Positions 57,352 to 64,000 of a DNA stretch of 64,000 nucleotides are shown here, piece by piece. The stretch spans positions 62,001 to 126,000 of the forward strand of contig JAHHHL010000013.1 in the NCBI GenBank assembly GCA_019359375.1, read 5' to 3'. Each line of letters opens with the position of its first letter. The first letter of the stretch is position 1. The notes below the pieces were generated by a model. The model worked only from the letters and a program-made list of their open reading frames with translations. It ran no database searches and was not told where the DNA came from. The stretch is from Lyngbya sp. HA4199-MV5 (GTDB lineage Bacteria; Cyanobacteriota; Cyanobacteriia; Leptolyngbyales; Leptolyngbyaceae). The translations under genes and the position numbers were made by a program.

Positions 57352-57659
57352 TAGTTGTTAGTTTTTGGTTGTTAGTTTTTAGTTGTTAGAAGGAGGCAGA
57401 AGTCAGGAGCCAGGAGTCAGAAGTTAGGAGTTGGCGGGCAGCAAGAACTCAGAGCTTCATCCTTCAGCCCTACTCTCTACTTCCTCCTCTAACAACCAAC
57501 AACTAACAACTAACTGTTTGACAAGCCCAAGGCAATCTTTTGACCTGTTCTGCTCACTGGAGGGTATTATGTCAGCGTAGGATGGCTGGTTTAAGCGTCG
57601 CTGGCGGTTTGCGATCGCGACCAGCCGTTCCCAGGGAATCGCTATGCCAGGGAAGAAAC
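57352..57659. other. Gap of low-complexity repeats
   Basis: TTAGTTTTTGGTTGTTAGTTT at the left, GGAGGCAGAAGTCAGGAGCC in the middle and CTAACAACCAACAACTAACAAC at the right. The ends are inverse copies, so the whole can form a long hairpin. No gene seen. Confidence 0.5.
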
Positions 57660-58352
57660 ATGAGCCGTCGCGTTGCGAAGCATCACTGCAAGCGTCCAGT
57701 TGGCGCGATTGTAAAACTCAGGTTAATCAGCCTTGTTTGTGCCGTTTTGATGGCAAGTTGCGGTAAATCTGATCCAACCCTAAACCCCGACCCACTGGCA
57801 CCCTTCGTCCAAGCCCGCTACAACGTTGAAGGCGCAGTCGCAACCTTCAAGCAAGAATTTCAACCAACCAACCCCAGTGACAGCCTGAGCGAAACAGACT
57901 GGAACAAATATCGACGCGGACGGCAACTCTACAATCAGGCTGCGTCTTCCATCAATGCGGTGATTGTGCAGGTCATGTTGGCAAATCAAACGCGTACAGA
58001 ACTGTCTCCAGTTGATTTTAAGCAACGGCTAGAAGTCGCCATCAATCAAGCCGCTGCCTTTCGAGAATATGCCGAAACCGTCCGGCGAGAACCACCCGGA
58101 GCACGCGATGGTTCTGCTACCCAGGCGCAACCGTTTTACTTCTCCATTCCCGTCAACCCGATCGGCGTGCCCGATCTGCTCAATTCCATCTTTGGTCAAA
58201 TCAATACCGCGCTGGGACAGGCGAGAAATGCCGAACAAGACAAGCGCGATCGCATTGAAGGTGTGCTTAAAAGTCTCTTGCTGCCTCCCTTTGATGAAGT
58301 GGGTCGAAAACCAGCAGATTCGTTTAGCCCACCCACCATACGCGCTAAATGA
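57660..58352 (+). CDS. Putative lipoprotein, unknown
   Basis: The ATG at 57660 (MSRRVAKHHCKRPVG) follows AGGGAAG. The segment LRLISLVCAVLMASC is a lipoprotein signal. The mature ~195 residues are helical (ARYNVEGAVATFKQEFQ, YNQAASSINAVIVQVML, QRLEVAINQAAAFREYAETV). No family recognised. Confidence 0.6.
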   Translation: MSRRVAKHHCKRPVGAIVKLRLISLVCAVLMASCGKSDPTLNPDPLAPFVQARYNVEGAVATFKQEFQPTNPSDSLSETDWNKYRRGRQLYNQAASSINAVIVQVMLANQTRTELSPVDFKQRLEVAINQAAAFREYAETVRREPPGARDGSATQAQPFYFSIPVNPIGVPDLLNSIFGQINTALGQARNAEQDKRDRIEGVLKSLLLPPFDEVGRKPADSFSPPTIRAK

Positions 58353-58563
58353 GTTGAGACTTGAGCAGTCAGCTATCGCTCCCCATCCAAACTGAGAAAC
58401 CGCTGAGAAACACCTGAGCTCGCCATTGGCTTAATTTCAGGCAATTTCTTGTTGAGCTTCAGAGGGGCTTCAGTGCGGGCTGCGATGCTTGAGCAGTGAA
58501 TCGATCGCGGTTCATCTCATACACACCACAATCACAATCCACATCTTCAAGTAGGAGTGTCTT

Positions 58564-58938
58564 ATGAAATTAGCTTCTTTGCTGACGGGTATTGCAATGG
58601 TTGGTTTGGTTACGGTTGGTGATGCATCGCTCAAGGCATTCAATCCTTCGGTAGGTACAGCGATCGCTGCTGAAGCGAAGCAATCAGGTCCCAGCGTTCA
58701 AGAAAAAATTGCTTTGATCACCAAAAACAAAGGACAAATTGGTGGCGGCGATCAGCTACGTCGTTTTTTCTACGGTGATTTGGAGCCGATCGGCATCCAG
58801 GTAGGCGGTGCTGGTCATGTGGTTAACCTGTATAACAAAGCGAATGATGTCACCTTCTCTTACTGCTCTACGTATGATGTTGTGGTTGCCGTTAAGAAGG
58901 GAAAAGTCGCTCAATTTCCCGCTGCTGAAGTGAAGTAA
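58564..58938 (+). CDS. Small secreted protein, unknown
   Basis: 124 residues. Signal peptide MKLASLLTGIAMVGLVTVGDAS; mature part QEKIALITKNKGQIGGGDQL, LEPIGIQVGGAGHVVNLYNKAND. AGGAG stands 8 bases before the ATG. It is followed by the Met-rich lipoprotein gene. Confidence 0.6.
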   Translation: MKLASLLTGIAMVGLVTVGDASLKAFNPSVGTAIAAEAKQSGPSVQEKIALITKNKGQIGGGDQLRRFFYGDLEPIGIQVGGAGHVVNLYNKANDVTFSYCSTYDVVVAVKKGKVAQFPAAEVK

Positions 58939-59056
58939 TCCACGCATAAACATCGTGTCTCTACAAGCGATCTGATTAGCACTTTTGTTCGTAAGCCAAG
59001 TGTTGCCAGCTTAATCAAAAGCAGCCTTTGTCCAACTTAATTACTCTAGGATCATC

Positions 59057-59365
59057 ATGAAAGCTAAACTCTTGTGTCTTTTTGTGGGTCTGACAATGGC
59101 TAGCCTCGCTGCCTGCTCCAGTACTCCCACTACAAATCAAGCTCCTAGTAGCGCGCCTGCCGCCAGCACCAGCCCTGAGGGCGCAATGAAGAATGATGCC
59201 ATGAAAGGTGGCGATGCGATGAAAGGCGATGCCAAGGGTGATGCCATGAAGGGCGATGCCATGAAGAAAGATGCGACTAAAGGCGATGCCATGAAGGGCG
59301 ATGCCATGAAGGGTGATGCCATGAAGGGTGATGCCATGAAGAAAGAAACAACGACTAAGCCATAG
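59057..59365 (+). CDS. Met-rich pentapeptide-repeat lipoprotein (MKGDA repeats)
   Basis: 102 residues. Lipoprotein signal MKAKLLCLFVGLTMASLAAC with Cys at 20, a Ser/Pro/Ala linker, then about eleven copies of the pentapeptide AMKGD (with AMKKD, ATKGD, AKGD variants). The mature region has 9 Met in 83 residues, with alternating Lys and Asp. It resembles the MxKDx pentapeptide-repeat proteins. It lies just upstream of the thioredoxin-like, CcdA, MsrA and molybdopterin-enzyme genes, and a role as a methionine sink for oxidants is inferred from that. Confidence 0.75.
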   Translation: MKAKLLCLFVGLTMASLAACSSTPTTNQAPSSAPAASTSPEGAMKNDAMKGGDAMKGDAKGDAMKGDAMKKDATKGDAMKGDAMKGDAMKGDAMKKETTTKP

Positions 59366-59509
59366 CCGATCGCTCCATTGGGGTAGAGGTTTGGCGTTGA
59401 AGCAACCCGTACCTCAATGACGGCTGTTCTCTTGTCGATGCTTGTGATGGTTGGTAGCGTCAGTTGTCGATCGCACACACTTTGTCATCCCGTTTTTGAA
59501 GGAGCAGAC

Positions 59510-60151
59510 ATGGAACTTTCGCGTCGTAGGCGACAACTCTTGCTCTACCTTGGTTTAGGCGTAGCAGGCGCAGGGGCTGCAACCGCTCTAGGAGTGGCTG
59601 CAAAACGATCGATTTCAGATACCGCGATCGCCCCTTCTGATGCGGCTTCCAATCGTTCTCCATTAGAAGCAGCATCTGGTGAAGCAGCAGCATCTGGTGA
59701 CAGTGCCGTGGCAGCTTCCAGCAAAGGTTTACCGGAGTTTCAGGGCATTAGCCAGTGGCTTAACTCTGCACCGCTAACCGTTGGCGATTTAAAGGGGAGC
59801 GTTGTATTGGTACAGTTCTGGACGTTTGCCTGCATCAACTGTCAGCGAACGTTGCCCTACATTGTGCAGTGGCATCAGCGCTACGCCGATAAGGGCTTGA
59901 AGGTGATTGGCATTCACACACCAGAGTTTGCTTTCGAGCGCGATCTCAACAACGTCAAGCAGGCATTGCAAAAGCACAACATCACCTACCCTGTGCCGAT
60001 CGACAACGAGTTCAAAACCTGGAGAGCCTACAGCAACGAATATTGGCCTCATCTCTTTCTCGCCGATCGTCAAGGCTTAGTCCGCTACGACCACATCGGC
60101 GAAGGCGCATACGACACTACAGAGCAAACAATCCGTAAGCTGTTGGGCTAG
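59510..60151 (+). CDS. Membrane-anchored thioredoxin-like protein (TlpA/DipZ-like)
   Basis: The ATG at 59510 (MELSRRRRQLLLYLGLGVAG) follows AAGGAG. The start is a twin-Arg/N-anchor segment, then an Ala/Ser linker. The thioredoxin domain has VVLVQFWTFACINCQRTLPYI with the CxxC pair C108/C111, and IGIHTPEFAFERDLNNVKQAL, as in the thioredoxin part of DipZ. It would be outside the inner membrane and receive electrons from the CcdA-type protein encoded next. Confidence 0.85.
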   Translation: MELSRRRRQLLLYLGLGVAGAGAATALGVAAKRSISDTAIAPSDAASNRSPLEAASGEAAASGDSAVAASSKGLPEFQGISQWLNSAPLTVGDLKGSVVLVQFWTFACINCQRTLPYIVQWHQRYADKGLKVIGIHTPEFAFERDLNNVKQALQKHNITYPVPIDNEFKTWRAYSNEYWPHLFLADRQGLVRYDHIGEGAYDTTEQTIRKLLG

Positions 60152-60203
60152 AGGGAGAGTTTTGAGTTAAGGCGGTTTCCAGAGAAGTTTATACCCGCAT
60201 ATC

Positions 60204-60275
60204 GTAGGGGCGAAGCATTCGGGCAGTATCTTTCGCCTCTTATCAAAGGTTATTTGCCGAATGCTTCGCCCGTAC
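60204..60275. repeat. Palindromic repeat with a GGCGAAGCATTCGG core
   Basis: GTAGGGGCGAAGCATTCGGG at 60204 is matched by TGCCGAATGCTTCGCCCGTAC at 60255-60275, with a 30-base loop. The core resembles that of family B copy 4 (36315-36470) but lacks its ends. Confidence 0.65.
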
Positions 60276-60394
60276 ATGAGGTATCTTCTTTCTCAGAAAT
60301 CTCCTAAGAGTTTTGAGTTGATTAAGCACTCAGCGGTCAGTAGTCAGCTTTTTAGCCTTTATCCTTCATCCCTCATCTCTTTGCCTTCTTCCCC

Positions 60395-61087
60395 ATGCCT
60401 CCTTCCTCCCTCTCTACCGGACTCGCCTTTCTCGGTGGCATACTAACCGTGCTTTCGCCATGTGTGTTGCCCATCTTGCCTGTGTTGGTGGGTCGATCGC
60501 TCCAGTCTCACAGGTACGGTCCGATTGCCCTAGTGGTTGGGCTGGTGGGTGGCTTTGCCGTAGCGGGCAGTCTGTTAGGCATTACGGCAAGCTGGTTTGC
60601 AGCGCTGGCAAGTATTTTGCGGTATGTTGCGATCGCCGTTCTACTGCTTCTGGGCTTGCTAGCCATTTTCCCTGATTGGAGCTATCGTGCCTTTAGCTAT
60701 CTCCCCATCCACCATTGGGTAAAGGAACCAAAGCATGGTGGGCTAACGGGTGAATTTTGGTTGGGGACGCAACTGGGGCTTTTGTGGACTCCGTGTGCTG
60801 GTCCTGTGTTAGGCGGCATTTTGGTGCTGGCAGCCGTCAACCATAATGTAGCTAGTGCCTTTGGCTTACTCGTTTCTTATGGCATCGGGGCGGCTTTACC
60901 GCTGTTGGCGATCGCCTATGGTGGTCGTGCAGTCAGCCGACGTTTACTCAATCTGCGTGCTCACACCGCTACCTTACAGCGAACTGGAGGTGTGATGATC
61001 GTTGTCACCGCGATCGCCATTCTGCTGGGGTGGGATGTGCAGATTCAGCTCTGGCTGGCACCACTGTTTCCATCTTTACCGCTTTAA
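60395..61087 (+). CDS. ccdA: CcdA-type transmembrane electron carrier
   Basis: 230 residues, about six membrane segments. The two redox Cys are in VLSPCVLPILPVLVG and LLWTPCAGPVLGGILVL, as in CcdA/DsbD. It passes electrons from cytoplasmic thioredoxin across the inner membrane. Gene order (thioredoxin-like, ccdA, msrA) indicates that it feeds the upstream and downstream exported redox proteins. Confidence 0.9.
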   Translation: MPPSSLSTGLAFLGGILTVLSPCVLPILPVLVGRSLQSHRYGPIALVVGLVGGFAVAGSLLGITASWFAALASILRYVAIAVLLLLGLLAIFPDWSYRAFSYLPIHHWVKEPKHGGLTGEFWLGTQLGLLWTPCAGPVLGGILVLAAVNHNVASAFGLLVSYGIGAALPLLAIAYGGRAVSRRLLNLRAHTATLQRTGGVMIVVTAIAILLGWDVQIQLWLAPLFPSLPL

Positions 61088-61119
61088 CCACAACTCAATC
61101 CCCATATCCCTTACGACCT

Positions 61120-61845
61120 ATGTCATCGTCTACTGCAAACCTTGTGATGCGCTCTCTACGTAAACTATCGATCCTTTCACTGGTGGCGATCGCCCTGATG
61201 GGTGGAGTGTCTTATTTCCGAGCCTCCCAGTCTGCGGCTAACACTTCAGTCGCAATGGTGCATAAAGTCTTTCCTGATCCGGCTACTGACATGCCAGCGA
61301 CCAAAGTAAGCATTGTGCAGACCGCTGTTTTTGCAGGGGGATGCTTTTGGGGAGTAGAAGCCGTGTTTGAACATCTCAAAGGAGTCTCCGATGTGGTGTC
61401 TGGCTACTCTGGCGGCAGTGCAGAAACGGCTCACTATGGGCTGGTGAGCTTTGGGCAAACAGGACACGCAGAATCCGTGAAAATTACCTACGATCCTACC
61501 CAGATTACCTACGGTCAGTTACTTAAGGTTTACTTCGCTGTCGCACATGATCCCACACAGTTAAATCGCCAGGGACCTGATTCGGGGACGCAGTACCGCT
61601 CTGCCATCTTTTTTGCGAACAACGAGGAAAAGCAGGTGGCGCAGGCATACATTGATCAACTAAACCAGGCGCATGTGTTTCAGAAGCCGATCGCAACTCA
61701 GATTGCTCCCCTGACAGGTTTCTATGCGGCTGAAACAGAGCATCAGAACTTCATCGTCAACCATCCAAACCACCCCTACGTGGTCATTCACGATCTGCCC
61801 AAGCTTGATCAACTTAAGACCAAGTTTGCTGCTCTTTATCAGTAG
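61120..61845 (+). CDS. msrA: Exported peptide methionine sulfoxide reductase A
   Basis: The start at 61120 (MSSSTANLVMRSLRKL) gives a basic N-terminus and a membrane segment (~16-30), so the catalytic domain would lie outside the cytoplasm. The active site is FAGGCFWGVEAVFEHLKGV with Cys at 75; the usual VVSGYSGG, HAESVKITYDP, HDPTQLNRQGPDSGTQYRSA and FYAAETEHQNF follow. It reduces methionine-S-sulfoxide in proteins. It starts 33 bases after ccdA. Confidence 0.92.
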   Translation: MSSSTANLVMRSLRKLSILSLVAIALMGGVSYFRASQSAANTSVAMVHKVFPDPATDMPATKVSIVQTAVFAGGCFWGVEAVFEHLKGVSDVVSGYSGGSAETAHYGLVSFGQTGHAESVKITYDPTQITYGQLLKVYFAVAHDPTQLNRQGPDSGTQYRSAIFFANNEEKQVAQAYIDQLNQAHVFQKPIATQIAPLTGFYAAETEHQNFIVNHPNHPYVVIHDLPKLDQLKTKFAALYQ

Positions 61846-61866
61846 CCCTCACATTGGTTGTCGCTC

Positions 61867-62469
61867 ATGGATTCTTCCATCCCGGCTAAACGCAAAGTAA
61901 AAGCACCCAGCCAGGCGATCGCAGCAAAAGCCTTTCACTGGATCAACATCGTGAGTCTGCTGTTGATGATTGTCAGCGGCTTACGCATCTACAACGCAAA
62001 TCCTGTCTTTGGAGGGCGCGCAGGGTGGCATTTTCCGCGCTTCTTGCTGATTGGTAATGGCTTGGCAGAGGGACGCGATTGGCATTTTGCATTCATGTGG
62101 GTCTATGCCTTGAATCTACTTGGCTATGGACTGTACGTGTTTATTACGCGGCGGTGGCAGCACCGTTTTGCCAGTAGTAATGATGTGAAAGCTATCCAGG
62201 TAAGCCAAAATGCCAAACGCAAAACCTACGCATGGCATCGGTTAGTGTATACCGCGATCGTGCCGATTTTGCTGTTGGCGATCGCCAGCGGTCTTGCCAT
62301 GTATAAACCCGCCCAACTGCATTGGCTCGCCGCCCTTTTTGGCGACTGGCAAACCCTCCGCACCATCCATTTCATCACTGTCCCTACCGTTCTGCTCTTT
62401 ACGTTTGTTCATTCCCTCCTCGCGCTCCGAGTGGGTACCCTGCGGCTGGTTAAGTCGATGTTTTTGTAA
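61867..62469 (+). CDS. Cytochrome b561-like four-helix membrane protein
   Basis: The ATG at 61867 (MDSSIPAKRKVKAPSQ) is 21 bases after msrA. Four membrane segments with conserved His: AFHWINIVSLLLMIVSG, DWHFAFMWVYALNLLGY, WHRLVYTAIVPILLLAIASG and TIHFITVPTVLLFTFVHSLLAL. These fit the heme-b ligands of cytochromes that pass electrons to periplasmic molybdopterin enzymes. It likely serves the oxidoreductase at 62728. Confidence 0.85.
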   Translation: MDSSIPAKRKVKAPSQAIAAKAFHWINIVSLLLMIVSGLRIYNANPVFGGRAGWHFPRFLLIGNGLAEGRDWHFAFMWVYALNLLGYGLYVFITRRWQHRFASSNDVKAIQVSQNAKRKTYAWHRLVYTAIVPILLLAIASGLAMYKPAQLHWLAALFGDWQTLRTIHFITVPTVLLFTFVHSLLALRVGTLRLVKSMFL

Positions 62470-62727
62470 GGGCAAGGGAGTGGTTGGTTGTTAGAAGGAG
62501 GCAGAAGGCAGGAGGCAGGAGGCAGGAGGCAAGAGGTTTTTAGTTTTTGGTTTTTAGTTTTTAGAAGGAGTCATCAATCATCAGTTTTCAGCCTTCAGTT
62601 TTGCCACGTCATCTACTGGAGACTGGTTCACTGTTCGCTGACGACTGTTGAAACCTTTTAGCCTTTAGCCTTCCCTTATCCCTCATTCCTACACCTCACA
62701 CCCCACTCCCCACTCCCCACTCCCCCC
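62470..62727. other. Repeat-filled gap inside the redox cluster
   Basis: GGAGGCAGAAGGCAGGAGGC, TTTTTAGTTTTTGGTTTTTAG, CCTTTAGCCTTCCC and CACCCCACTCCCCACTCCCC, all seen in other gaps. It separates the cytochrome and molybdopterin-enzyme genes. Confidence 0.55.
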
Positions 62728-63447
62728 ATGAACCCAATTCTCCCCCAACGCACGCTCTCCCGTCGCCGACTCCTGCAATGGTCTGGTATCTCTGGTGCGG
62801 GGTTGCTGCTAAACGGCTGTGCGTCGTCGCTGTTTGCAGAGCAGGTGGGTCAATTTTCTGAACCGTTAAATCAGCGGATTGAAGCACTGATGCTTTCTCA
62901 GAAGCCCGTGCCAGAATTTGCTGCCAGTGCGCTTGATCCAGCTGAGAAATTGCTCATTAACACCTTTGACTTTACGCCCAGGTTTGACCCAACGACCTTC
63001 AAATTGACGATCGATGGTGAAGTGAATCGCCCCATGCAGTTGAGTCTCGCAGACCTGCAAAAGATGCCGCTTACGTCGATGAATATTCGCCATGTGTGCG
63101 TTGAAGGATGGGCGGCGATCGTGCAGTGGAACGGTGTCCGGTTACGCGATTTGGTCACTTTAGTACAACCCAAAAACACGGTTCGCTATGTCTACTTCAC
63201 GTCAGCCGATGGCTACTACGAAAGCTGGGATCTTGCCTCAGCCGTCCATCCCCAAACGTTGATGGCTTACTGGCGCAACGGCAAGCCACTCACGCCTGAT
63301 AATGGCGCACCCTTGCGGCTGGCATCTCCCATCAAATTGGGCTACAAGCAAAGCAAATGGGTGACGCAAATCACCTTCTTAAGTAATCTGACACCCATGA
63401 AAGGCTATTGGGAAGACCAGGGCTACGAGTGGTTTGGAGGATTGTAG
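62728..63447 (+). CDS. Tat-exported molybdopterin oxidoreductase (sulfite-oxidase/MsrP-like)
   Basis: 239 residues. A Tat signal (SRRRLLQWSG) and a lipobox (LLNGC, Cys 31) predict an anchored extracytoplasmic protein. The sulfite-oxidase-fold domain has FTPRFDPTTFKLTIDGEVNR, MPLTSMNIRHVCVEGW with the molybdenum-binding Cys at ~124, WNGVRLRDLV, YVYFTSADGYYESWDL and MKGYWEDQGYEWF. Its closest functional relative by context is MsrP (YedY), which repairs protein methionine sulfoxide. The genuine substrate is not proven. Confidence 0.85.
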   Translation: MNPILPQRTLSRRRLLQWSGISGAGLLLNGCASSLFAEQVGQFSEPLNQRIEALMLSQKPVPEFAASALDPAEKLLINTFDFTPRFDPTTFKLTIDGEVNRPMQLSLADLQKMPLTSMNIRHVCVEGWAAIVQWNGVRLRDLVTLVQPKNTVRYVYFTSADGYYESWDLASAVHPQTLMAYWRNGKPLTPDNGAPLRLASPIKLGYKQSKWVTQITFLSNLTPMKGYWEDQGYEWFGGL

Positions 63448-63480
63448 GAAGGGTTGCTTGGGGGACACGCATCTTGCCTG

Positions 63481-64000
63481 CTACCAAAACCACTCGCGTT
63501 CTAACTCTTCAATCACTTGCAATCCGCGTGGGTCGCCTACTTTGAGCAGCGCGGCTTTGGCATCTTCCCGCACGCCCAGTTCGCCATCTTCGGCAAATAC
63601 TTCTAAAAGCGCATCGATCGCTGTCCCGTAGATGACGTTTGAGGGGAGTTCGCGGCAGAGTTGCCCCAGTGTCCAGGCGCAATTACTTCGCACGGCTGCG
63701 ATCGGGTCTTGCCGCACCGACTCAATCAAGGGTGGAATTGCGGCAATCACAGCCTCATAGCTCACGGCTGCAAGCTGAGCTAGCGAACTGGCTGCCCACA
63801 ACCGCACGGCTGAGATATCCGTTTTGAGTGCCTCAATCAGGGTTGGTAGCGCGCGGCGATCGCGGCAGTTGCCCAACGCCCATATCACTCCTTTACGGAC
63901 GTAGCCATTCCAGTCATCATTAAACCGCCTGATCAACGGCTCCACCGCATCCACGCTAGGATTGCGACCCAGCGCATAGGCGGCACTCACCCGCACCAAC
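63481..64000 (-). CDS. HEAT-repeat protein, C-terminal part (runs off right edge)
   Basis: 172 residues of PBS-lyase/HEAT-type repeats: VRVSAAYALGRNPSVDAVEPL, VRKGVIWALGNCRDRRALPTL, VRLWAASSLAQLAAVSY, VRSNCAWTLGQLCRELPS and VREDAKAALLKVGDPRG. In cyanobacteria such proteins include bilin lyases and phycobilisome-related factors as well as general scaffolds. The first codon at the edge is not a proper start, so the 5' part is missing. Confidence 0.82.
   Translation of the reverse strand, partial: LVRVSAAYALGRNPSVDAVEPLIRRFNDDWNGYVRKGVIWALGNCRDRRALPTLIEALKTDISAVRLWAASSLAQLAAVSYEAVIAAIPPLIESVRQDPIAAVRSNCAWTLGQLCRELPSNVIYGTAIDALLEVFAEDGELGVREDAKAALLKVGDPRGLQVIEELEREWFW

Follow-up and report, generated by a model that had tools for sequence, protein, structure and literature searches.

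A six-gene redox cluster in Lyngbya sp. HA4199-MV5

We analysed a 64,000-nucleotide stretch of contig JAHHHL010000013.1 from the cyanobacterium Lyngbya sp. HA4199-MV5 (assembly GCA_019359375.1; host genome 6.9 Mb), referred to here as the window. Between positions 59057 and 63447 it carries six open reading frames (ORFs), all on the + strand, which encode in order a methionine (Met)-rich lipoprotein, an exported thioredoxin (Trx), CcdA, a methionine sulfoxide reductase (Msr) of the MsrA type, a b561-type cytochrome (CytB) and a molybdoenzyme (MoOx). A first-pass annotation of the sequence had proposed this order and a set of motifs for the six genes; the ORF coordinates bear out the former, and sequence and domain matches the latter. 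Export of the cluster proteins was judged from their sequences.

59057..59365, + strand: Met-rich repeat lipoprotein (MXKDX/DAM-repeat type) with lipobox, proposed sacrificial oxidant sink; TIGR02953, 43.2 bits
59510..60151, + strand: exported DipZ-type Trx (CINC) with an RR-containing N-terminal hydrophobic segment; AhpC-TSA, Redoxin, DipZ structures
60395..61087, + strand: CcdA/DsbD-type membrane thiol electron carrier; DsbD_TM, 50.6 bits
61120..61845, + strand: 1-Cys MsrA with an N-terminal hydrophobic segment, occasional member; PMSF, 194.2 bits; TIGR00401, 166 bits
61867..62469, + strand: b561-type cytochrome b, proposed electron donor of MoOx; PF01292, 56.6 bits
62728..63447, + strand: MoOx of the sulfite-oxidase/MsrP fold, twin-Arg signal and lipobox-like Cys, C3567-like, proposed methionine-sulfoxide reductase; PF00174
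58564..58938, + strand: possible extra member, an exported 124-aa protein of unknown family, found near the cluster at 7 of the 78 loci

The annotation also described the cluster as compact. Its spacers of 33 and 21 bases on either side of msrA are right, and the set is nonetheless less compact than that title implied because the remaining gaps, by coordinates, are about 144 (lipoprotein to Trx), 243 (Trx to CcdA) and 258 bases (cytochrome to MoOx). The last of these has a median of 11 bases in 59 related loci, with guessed starts; in the window it carries a short tandem GGAGGCA-type repeat (62497-62540). A promoter scan found no candidate, with 4.2 expected by chance.

The neighbourhood is conserved among cyanobacteria

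The annotation had proposed looking for the same neighbourhood in other cyanobacterial genomes, and there it is conserved. Scanning named genomes with a Trx alignment gave 78 Trx-type loci (L-numbers below denote loci and G-numbers genomes), with titles that are nearly all cyanobacterial, in which neighbours were counted within 6 kb of Trx; 59 of the 78 are well flanked, having 1.5 kb or more of upstream and 3 kb or more of downstream sequence. CcdA was found in 71/78 loci (56/59 well flanked), the cytochrome in 68/78 (54/59) and MoOx in 65/78 (52/59), and the Met-rich gene was recognised in 50/78 (42/59). Trx, CcdA, CytB and MoOx occur together in 64 of the 78 loci and are collinear in 57, and 47 have the Met-rich gene as well. 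Most of these related loci share the neighbours, so the clustering exceeds chance, and a Met-rich lipoprotein, a DipZ-like Trx, CcdA, a b561-type cytochrome and a MoOx with a twin-arginine translocation (Tat) signal form a conserved module. In a phylum-wide set of 292 cyanobacterial genomes, MoOx relatives of at least 53% identity are present in 41, and intact Trx relatives of at least 60% identity in 7, the window's own included; in 6 of these 7, Trx and MoOx are no more than 3 kb apart, and in G215 Trx is on a separate contig. Among the open-licence papers listed in literature searches, we recognised no description of this cluster in cyanobacteria.

Some individual loci depart from the common pattern or call for caution. 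Two from Tolypothrichaceae (L121 and L132) keep Trx, CcdA and CytB, with no MoOx recognised. Two cluster copies with identical Trx (L130 and L131) lie about 23 kb apart on one Pseudanabaena frigida contig, through duplication or an assembly artefact. One contig (L098) is filed under a Tatlockia metagenome-assembled genome; its cluster groups with cyanobacteria, so that this is probably a binning error.

A lipoprotein in which Met is almost the only oxidisable residue

The window lipoprotein has the lipobox LAAC and a mature part of 83 residues, in which a recount agrees with the 9 Met and roughly eleven MKGDA-like repeats claimed for it (11 units). It passes NCBIfam TIGR02953, 'pentapeptide MXKDX repeat protein', whose cut-off is 41 bits. 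That model covers the set poorly, since just 2 of ten further cyanobacterial copies pass, 2 fall below the cut-off and 6 give no match; as a search model it found 5 genomes among the 292, one of them over the cut-off. It was set aside for a DNA pattern matching three DAM units, biased to that repeat type, which was scanned in 80 genomes (41 with MoOx and 39 without). The pattern matched in 9 of the 80, all with MoOx, and in 0/39 without it. In 7 of the 9 matching genomes, 8 arrays are Met-rich genes, each within about 4 kb of MoOx. Arrays of 21-base units containing GATGCAATG occur away from MoOx in G125, G167 and G068 and were excluded from the 8. Three further Met-repeat places from the TIGR02953 search (L083, L084 and L085) were dropped, as the ORFs listed there have no lipobox, and a fourth (L086, in G236) gave no match when the locus was searched.

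The repeat unit varies by lineage (KGDAM, KSPDAM, SKDKAGDAM, QGDAM, ESPDAM), and its composition is distinctive. We examined 45 lipoproteins selected for a Met count of 5 or more and a Met share of 5.5% or more; they hold 5 to 21 Met each, and 391 of their 459 Met follow Asp-Ala. Their Met content of 11.1% is partly a selection effect, because the proteins were chosen for Met. The scarcity of other oxidisable residues is not: the 45 have no Trp, no Phe and 2 Tyr in total, 42 are free of His, and 44 have Cys at the lipobox only.

This composition bears on one alternative, that the lipoprotein buffers copper or silver instead of acting as an oxidant sink. Met-rich exported proteins can bind Cu(I), and Rhizobium sp. 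K1/93 has cueR and a heavy-metal ATPase within about 4 kb of its MoOx homologue. Against a metal buffer stand the near absence of His and of Cys beyond the lipobox, and a partial look at the cyanobacterial neighbours in which no copper gene was recognised. Of the explanations considered here we give this one the least credence.

A b561-type cytochrome paired with a molybdoenzyme distinct from MsrP

The cytochrome, read from ATG 61867, clears the PF01292 cut-off of 30.1 bits, and His24, His73, His168 and His182 are invariant in 14/14 aligned sequences. The MsrQ family PF01794 is not among its Pfam matches at E ≤ 0.1. Of 48 fetched MoOx loci, comprising the best MoOx matches and the window's own locus, 45 have a cytochrome match next to MoOx (a weak one in L079), and L035 has a fragment.

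MoOx matches PF00174 at 123.7 bits and retains the conserved molybdenum-ligand Cys, and fold matches agree in giving it the sulfite-oxidase fold. Cys31, at the lipobox position, and Cys124, in the motif CVEGW, are invariant in 46/46 aligned sequences. The annotation's description of a Tat-exported enzyme of the sulfite-oxidase/MsrP fold stands as to fold; the Pfam TAT_signal score of 14.0 is below its cut-off of 22.7, so that the Tat assignment rests on the twin Arg and the hydrophobic stretch. A census of 61 MoOx proteins by regular expression, with guessed starts, found a lipobox-like motif in 49 and RR within 22 residues in 50, which is weaker than the 46-row alignment by itself would imply. 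A paralogue in the host's own genome (L068) has no lipobox Cys, and MoOx is therefore not a lipoprotein everywhere.

Two corrections apply to the annotation's comparison with MsrP and its membrane cytochrome: the cytochrome is of the PF01292 rather than the MsrQ type, and MoOx belongs to a family separate from MsrP. Identity with MsrP is ruled out by the NCBIfam cut-off (100.7 bits on NF003767, against 207), and across the 292 genomes MoOx-type proteins score 76-111 bits on this model versus 379-437 for true MsrP. True MsrP is present in 46 of the 292, 4 of which also carry MoOx. We did not use a complementary distribution of the two as a test of function, as the signal is weak (4 genomes with both, against 6.5 expected) and kinship was ignored. 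Cyanobacterial MsrP, for example that of Limnospira (PMC8400943), shares the fold family and a CVE-W active-site motif with MoOx, and score and tree separate the two; the same study describes MsrA and MsrB together with an MsrP for which no partner MsrQ was found. Three true-MsrP genes (L213, L214 and L215) also carry RR and a lipobox-like Cys, and no MsrQ-like ORF was evident by eye within about 1.5 kb on either side of them.

The substrate of this pair is where the most serious alternative arises. CytB and MoOx could act on a small molecule (an S-oxide, an N-oxide or sulfite), with the thiol branch and the Met-rich protein merely co-regulated stress genes. A structural model of MoOx (mean predicted local distance difference test score 68) lies about equally near SorA sulfite dehydrogenase (Z 19.5) and MsrP (Z 18.0), so that MsrP and sulfite dehydrogenases are not told apart by the modelled fold; moreover, 40 of the 48 MoOx loci lack Trx, a Met-rich gene being present in just 2 of these. 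By sequence, on the other hand, MoOx is closer to MsrP (E 8e-30) than to SorA (E 6e-17), and its CVEGW motif resembles the CVEAW of cyanobacterial MsrP, not the C-x-G-N-x-R form in which sulfite oxidases hold their active-site Cys. Met-rich peptides also lie beside 4 of the 7 proteobacterial homologues described below. On balance we regard a small-molecule substrate as unlikely.

A thiol branch with occasional MsrA and MsrB

Trx, with a likely start at ATG 59510, scores above the cut-offs of both AhpC-TSA and Redoxin and has the motif CINC; both Cys and an RR are invariant in 7/7 aligned sequences. Its closest solved relatives are the thioredoxin parts of DipZ, 5cyy (E 6e-53) and 2hyx (E 7e-53), both from Mycobacterium. 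The window cluster differs from DipZ in that CcdA and Trx are separate genes. CcdA scores over the DsbD_TM cut-off of 27.1 bits and has the two membrane Cys of that family, in SPCVLP and WTPCAGP. On the Trx tree the window copy is closest to Stenomitos thioredoxins.

Three observations concern variants of this branch. A fused, DipZ-like CcdA-thioredoxin gene adjoins CytB-MoOx in L077 (6080-7516). In L087 (C74; 1092-3903), the host's own genome has a second thioredoxin that is 53% identical to the window's and separated by about 1 kb from a gene for MsrA (42%). In L043 and L218 (4268-4907), Trx lies in two frames or contains stops and may be broken or misassembled.

Read from ATG 61120, the window MsrA exceeds the TIGR00401 cut-off of 108.1 bits and has the catalytic motif GCFWG, a single Cys and, by eye, one N-terminal hydrophobic segment, which place it among MsrA proteins. 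The annotation had treated msrA as integral to the unit. We reject it as a core member: MsrA lies within 6 kb of Trx in 7/78 loci (6/59 well flanked), namely L093, L094, L095, L099, L109, L155 and L156, and also beside Trx on Kovacikia minuta plasmid pA. These loci occupy about five places on the Trx tree, which has few alignment columns. MsrB was found in L102, L047 and L156, and in the first two a lipoprotein-like MsrB adjoins MoOx; L156 has, in a row, MsrB, MsrA, the Met-rich gene, Trx, CcdA, the cytochrome and MoOx. In L040, MsrA and a partial MsrB match lie about 7 kb from CytB-MoOx. Of eight MsrA (the window's and those of the seven loci), seven contain a single Cys and the other carries its second one in the N-terminal segment only, so Trx would need to act directly on the sulfenic acid. 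Window-like MsrA of at least 54% identity occurs in 4/7 genomes with Trx versus 6/285 without (P = 2e-5, kinship ignored).

Thioredoxin and CcdA could instead serve general envelope disulfide reduction or cytochrome assembly, roles that CcdA and TlpA/ResA relatives have elsewhere, and most loci have no Msr gene beside them. Pointing the other way, L109 has Trx, CcdA and MsrA with no CytB-MoOx, and the window, L093, L094, L095, L099 and the Kovacikia plasmid all have msrA flanked by ccdA and the cytochrome gene. We think such a general role highly improbable as an explanation of the thiol branch.

Relatives outside cyanobacteria and parallels with known systems

MoOx relatives extend well beyond the phylum. 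They occur on plasmids of Rhizobium, Escherichia, Agrobacterium, Klebsiella, Rahnella and others (235 of 72,556 records, E ≤ 1e-20), in 350 of 5,426 Escherichia coli genomes and, with 4 matches, in phage records. In seven proteobacterial neighbourhoods a cytochrome related to the window's adjoins MoOx in 7/7 and a Met-rich peptide gene in 4/7, two of them annotated as MXKDX protein; these stretches (4.8 to 12.8 kb) gave no match to the window Trx, CcdA or MsrA, nor to MsrB. Proteobacteria thus already possess cytochrome, molybdoenzyme and MXKDX peptide as a triad, which has been little studied; in cyanobacteria this triad is joined to a CcdA-thioredoxin branch and sometimes to MsrA or MsrB.

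In a tree, the proteobacterial relatives group with cyanobacterial MoOx, apart from MsrP (support 88/90, long branches). Tree and adjoining cytochrome place the window MoOx in a C3567-like subfamily, the strain CFT073 proteins themselves lying outside the comparison. In uropathogenic E. coli, the kinase/regulator pair OrhK/OrhR activates c3566, c3567 and c3568, which encode a cytochrome b, a protein 27.6% identical to MsrP and a Met-rich peptide; c3566 and c3567 mutants grow more poorly with tert-butyl hydroperoxide (PMC8550376). The E. coli version we found appears to be this operon, judging from matching gene order and not from the CFT073 record. The likeness to cyanobacteria spans the b-type cytochrome, the MoOx subfamily (the window protein is 36-39% identical to two E. 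coli versions), the Met-rich peptide and, for some cyanobacterial copies, a kinase/regulator pair. The two E. coli stretches differ in having no match to Trx, CcdA, MsrA or MsrB, and their Met-rich peptides have, by eye, a plain signal rather than a lipobox.

Each half of the cluster has a further counterpart. Brucella bcrXQP, which is induced by hypochlorous acid and combines an MXKDX peptide with MsrQP (PMC8315932), and Azospira yedYZ-mrpX (PMC5748585) likewise join an MXKDX-type peptide, a molybdoenzyme, a membrane cytochrome and an extracytoplasmic function (ECF) sigma/anti-sigma pair; they use MsrP with MsrQ, and the two reports, as far as available, mention no CcdA/thioredoxin branch. 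In Streptococcus pneumoniae, CcdA and the thioredoxin Etrx feed exported MsrAB2 (PMC3914529), again a case of CcdA and an exported thioredoxin supplying an exported Msr; there MsrA and MsrB are one protein, and the available part of that report mentions no molybdoenzyme, cytochrome or Met-rich substrate.

A candidate extracytoplasmic methionine redox cycle

The gene content, conservation, export-type N-termini, catalytic cysteines and linkage described above are properties of the sequences themselves. From them we consider it probable that the cluster runs an extracytoplasmic methionine redox cycle, in which methionine sulfoxide is repaired around a sacrificial lipoprotein through two routes, one using heme and the other thiols. 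Methionine sulfoxide is the suggested target because export-type MsrA and MsrB join the cluster and because the E. coli homologue has a peroxide phenotype. The chain of Met in the lipoprotein, which has hardly any other oxidisable residue, would react with oxidants. In the heme route, electrons from quinol or another membrane donor would pass through the b561-type cytochrome to MoOx, which would reduce methionine sulfoxide; in the thiol route they would pass from cytoplasmic thioredoxin through CcdA to the exported CINC Trx and on to the 1-Cys MsrA in the window or, at other loci, to a lipoprotein MsrB. Other envelope proteins would be mended by these enzymes too. Substrate, electron flow, dual feeding and the lipoprotein's place as main client are what we infer from the cluster's make-up.

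The annotation had likewise placed two electron routes around a Met-rich protein, and much of that survives: thiol and heme branches usually co-occur and Met-rich arrays lie beside the loci, with msrA falling outside the core. The stronger version, in which the lipoprotein is a rechargeable oxidant sink conserved in cyanobacteria, its Met reduced by both routes and the heme one being respiratory or photosynthetic, we advance tentatively, at somewhat short of even chances. If it is true, the two feeding routes would allow recharge from NADPH or from the membrane quinone pool as light changes.

Several results weigh against a methionine redox cycle. MoOx falls below the MsrP cut-off, its modelled fold is about as near to a sulfite dehydrogenase as to MsrP, and Trx is absent from most sampled MoOx loci. 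The Met-rich gene as counted is absent from 17 of the 59 well-flanked loci (one, L152, has a 4-Met version), and L036 and L074 carry it with no Trx-CcdA. MsrA and MsrB are absent from most cluster loci; Msr genes occur in 10/86 Trx-type loci versus 1/40 CytB-MoOx loci without Trx (P = 0.17, a few genomes being shared by both sets), and we claim no enrichment. The E. coli homologue, finally, is itself termed a putative Msr (PMC8550376).

Were the cycle to operate as proposed, the cluster would extend a stress system partly known from E. coli and Brucella. Extracytoplasmic methionine-sulfoxide repair has so far been worked out in proteobacteria and streptococci, and the cluster offers oxygen-producing cells a concrete candidate repair system in the envelope or thylakoid lumen. 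It also suggests a testable substrate for C3567-like molybdoenzymes, both those of E. coli and those in other bacteria, and makes the electron source that feeds envelope protein repair a testable question in a phototroph.

Regulators and additional neighbours

Genes for an ECF sigma factor and an RskA-type anti-sigma factor adjoin the cluster in 17/78 loci, in three arrangements (L102, L137, L142, L146, L150, L152, L155, L163 and nine Pseudanabaena-type loci), and a related histidine kinase (at least 41% identity) lies beside it in 9 further loci. The sigma/anti-sigma or kinase/regulator pairs may control the copies that they adjoin; no such regulator was seen among the window genes examined (57540-63999).

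A DM13 protein joins the cluster in 17 loci. The 124-aa protein encoded directly upstream of the window cluster has no Pfam or NCBIfam match over cut-off, and its low-confidence model gave no PDB fold match at E ≤ 0.001. In its L096 relative (355-816), GDSM repeats follow the signal and precede the domain, as though a Met-rich stretch had become fused to the protein.

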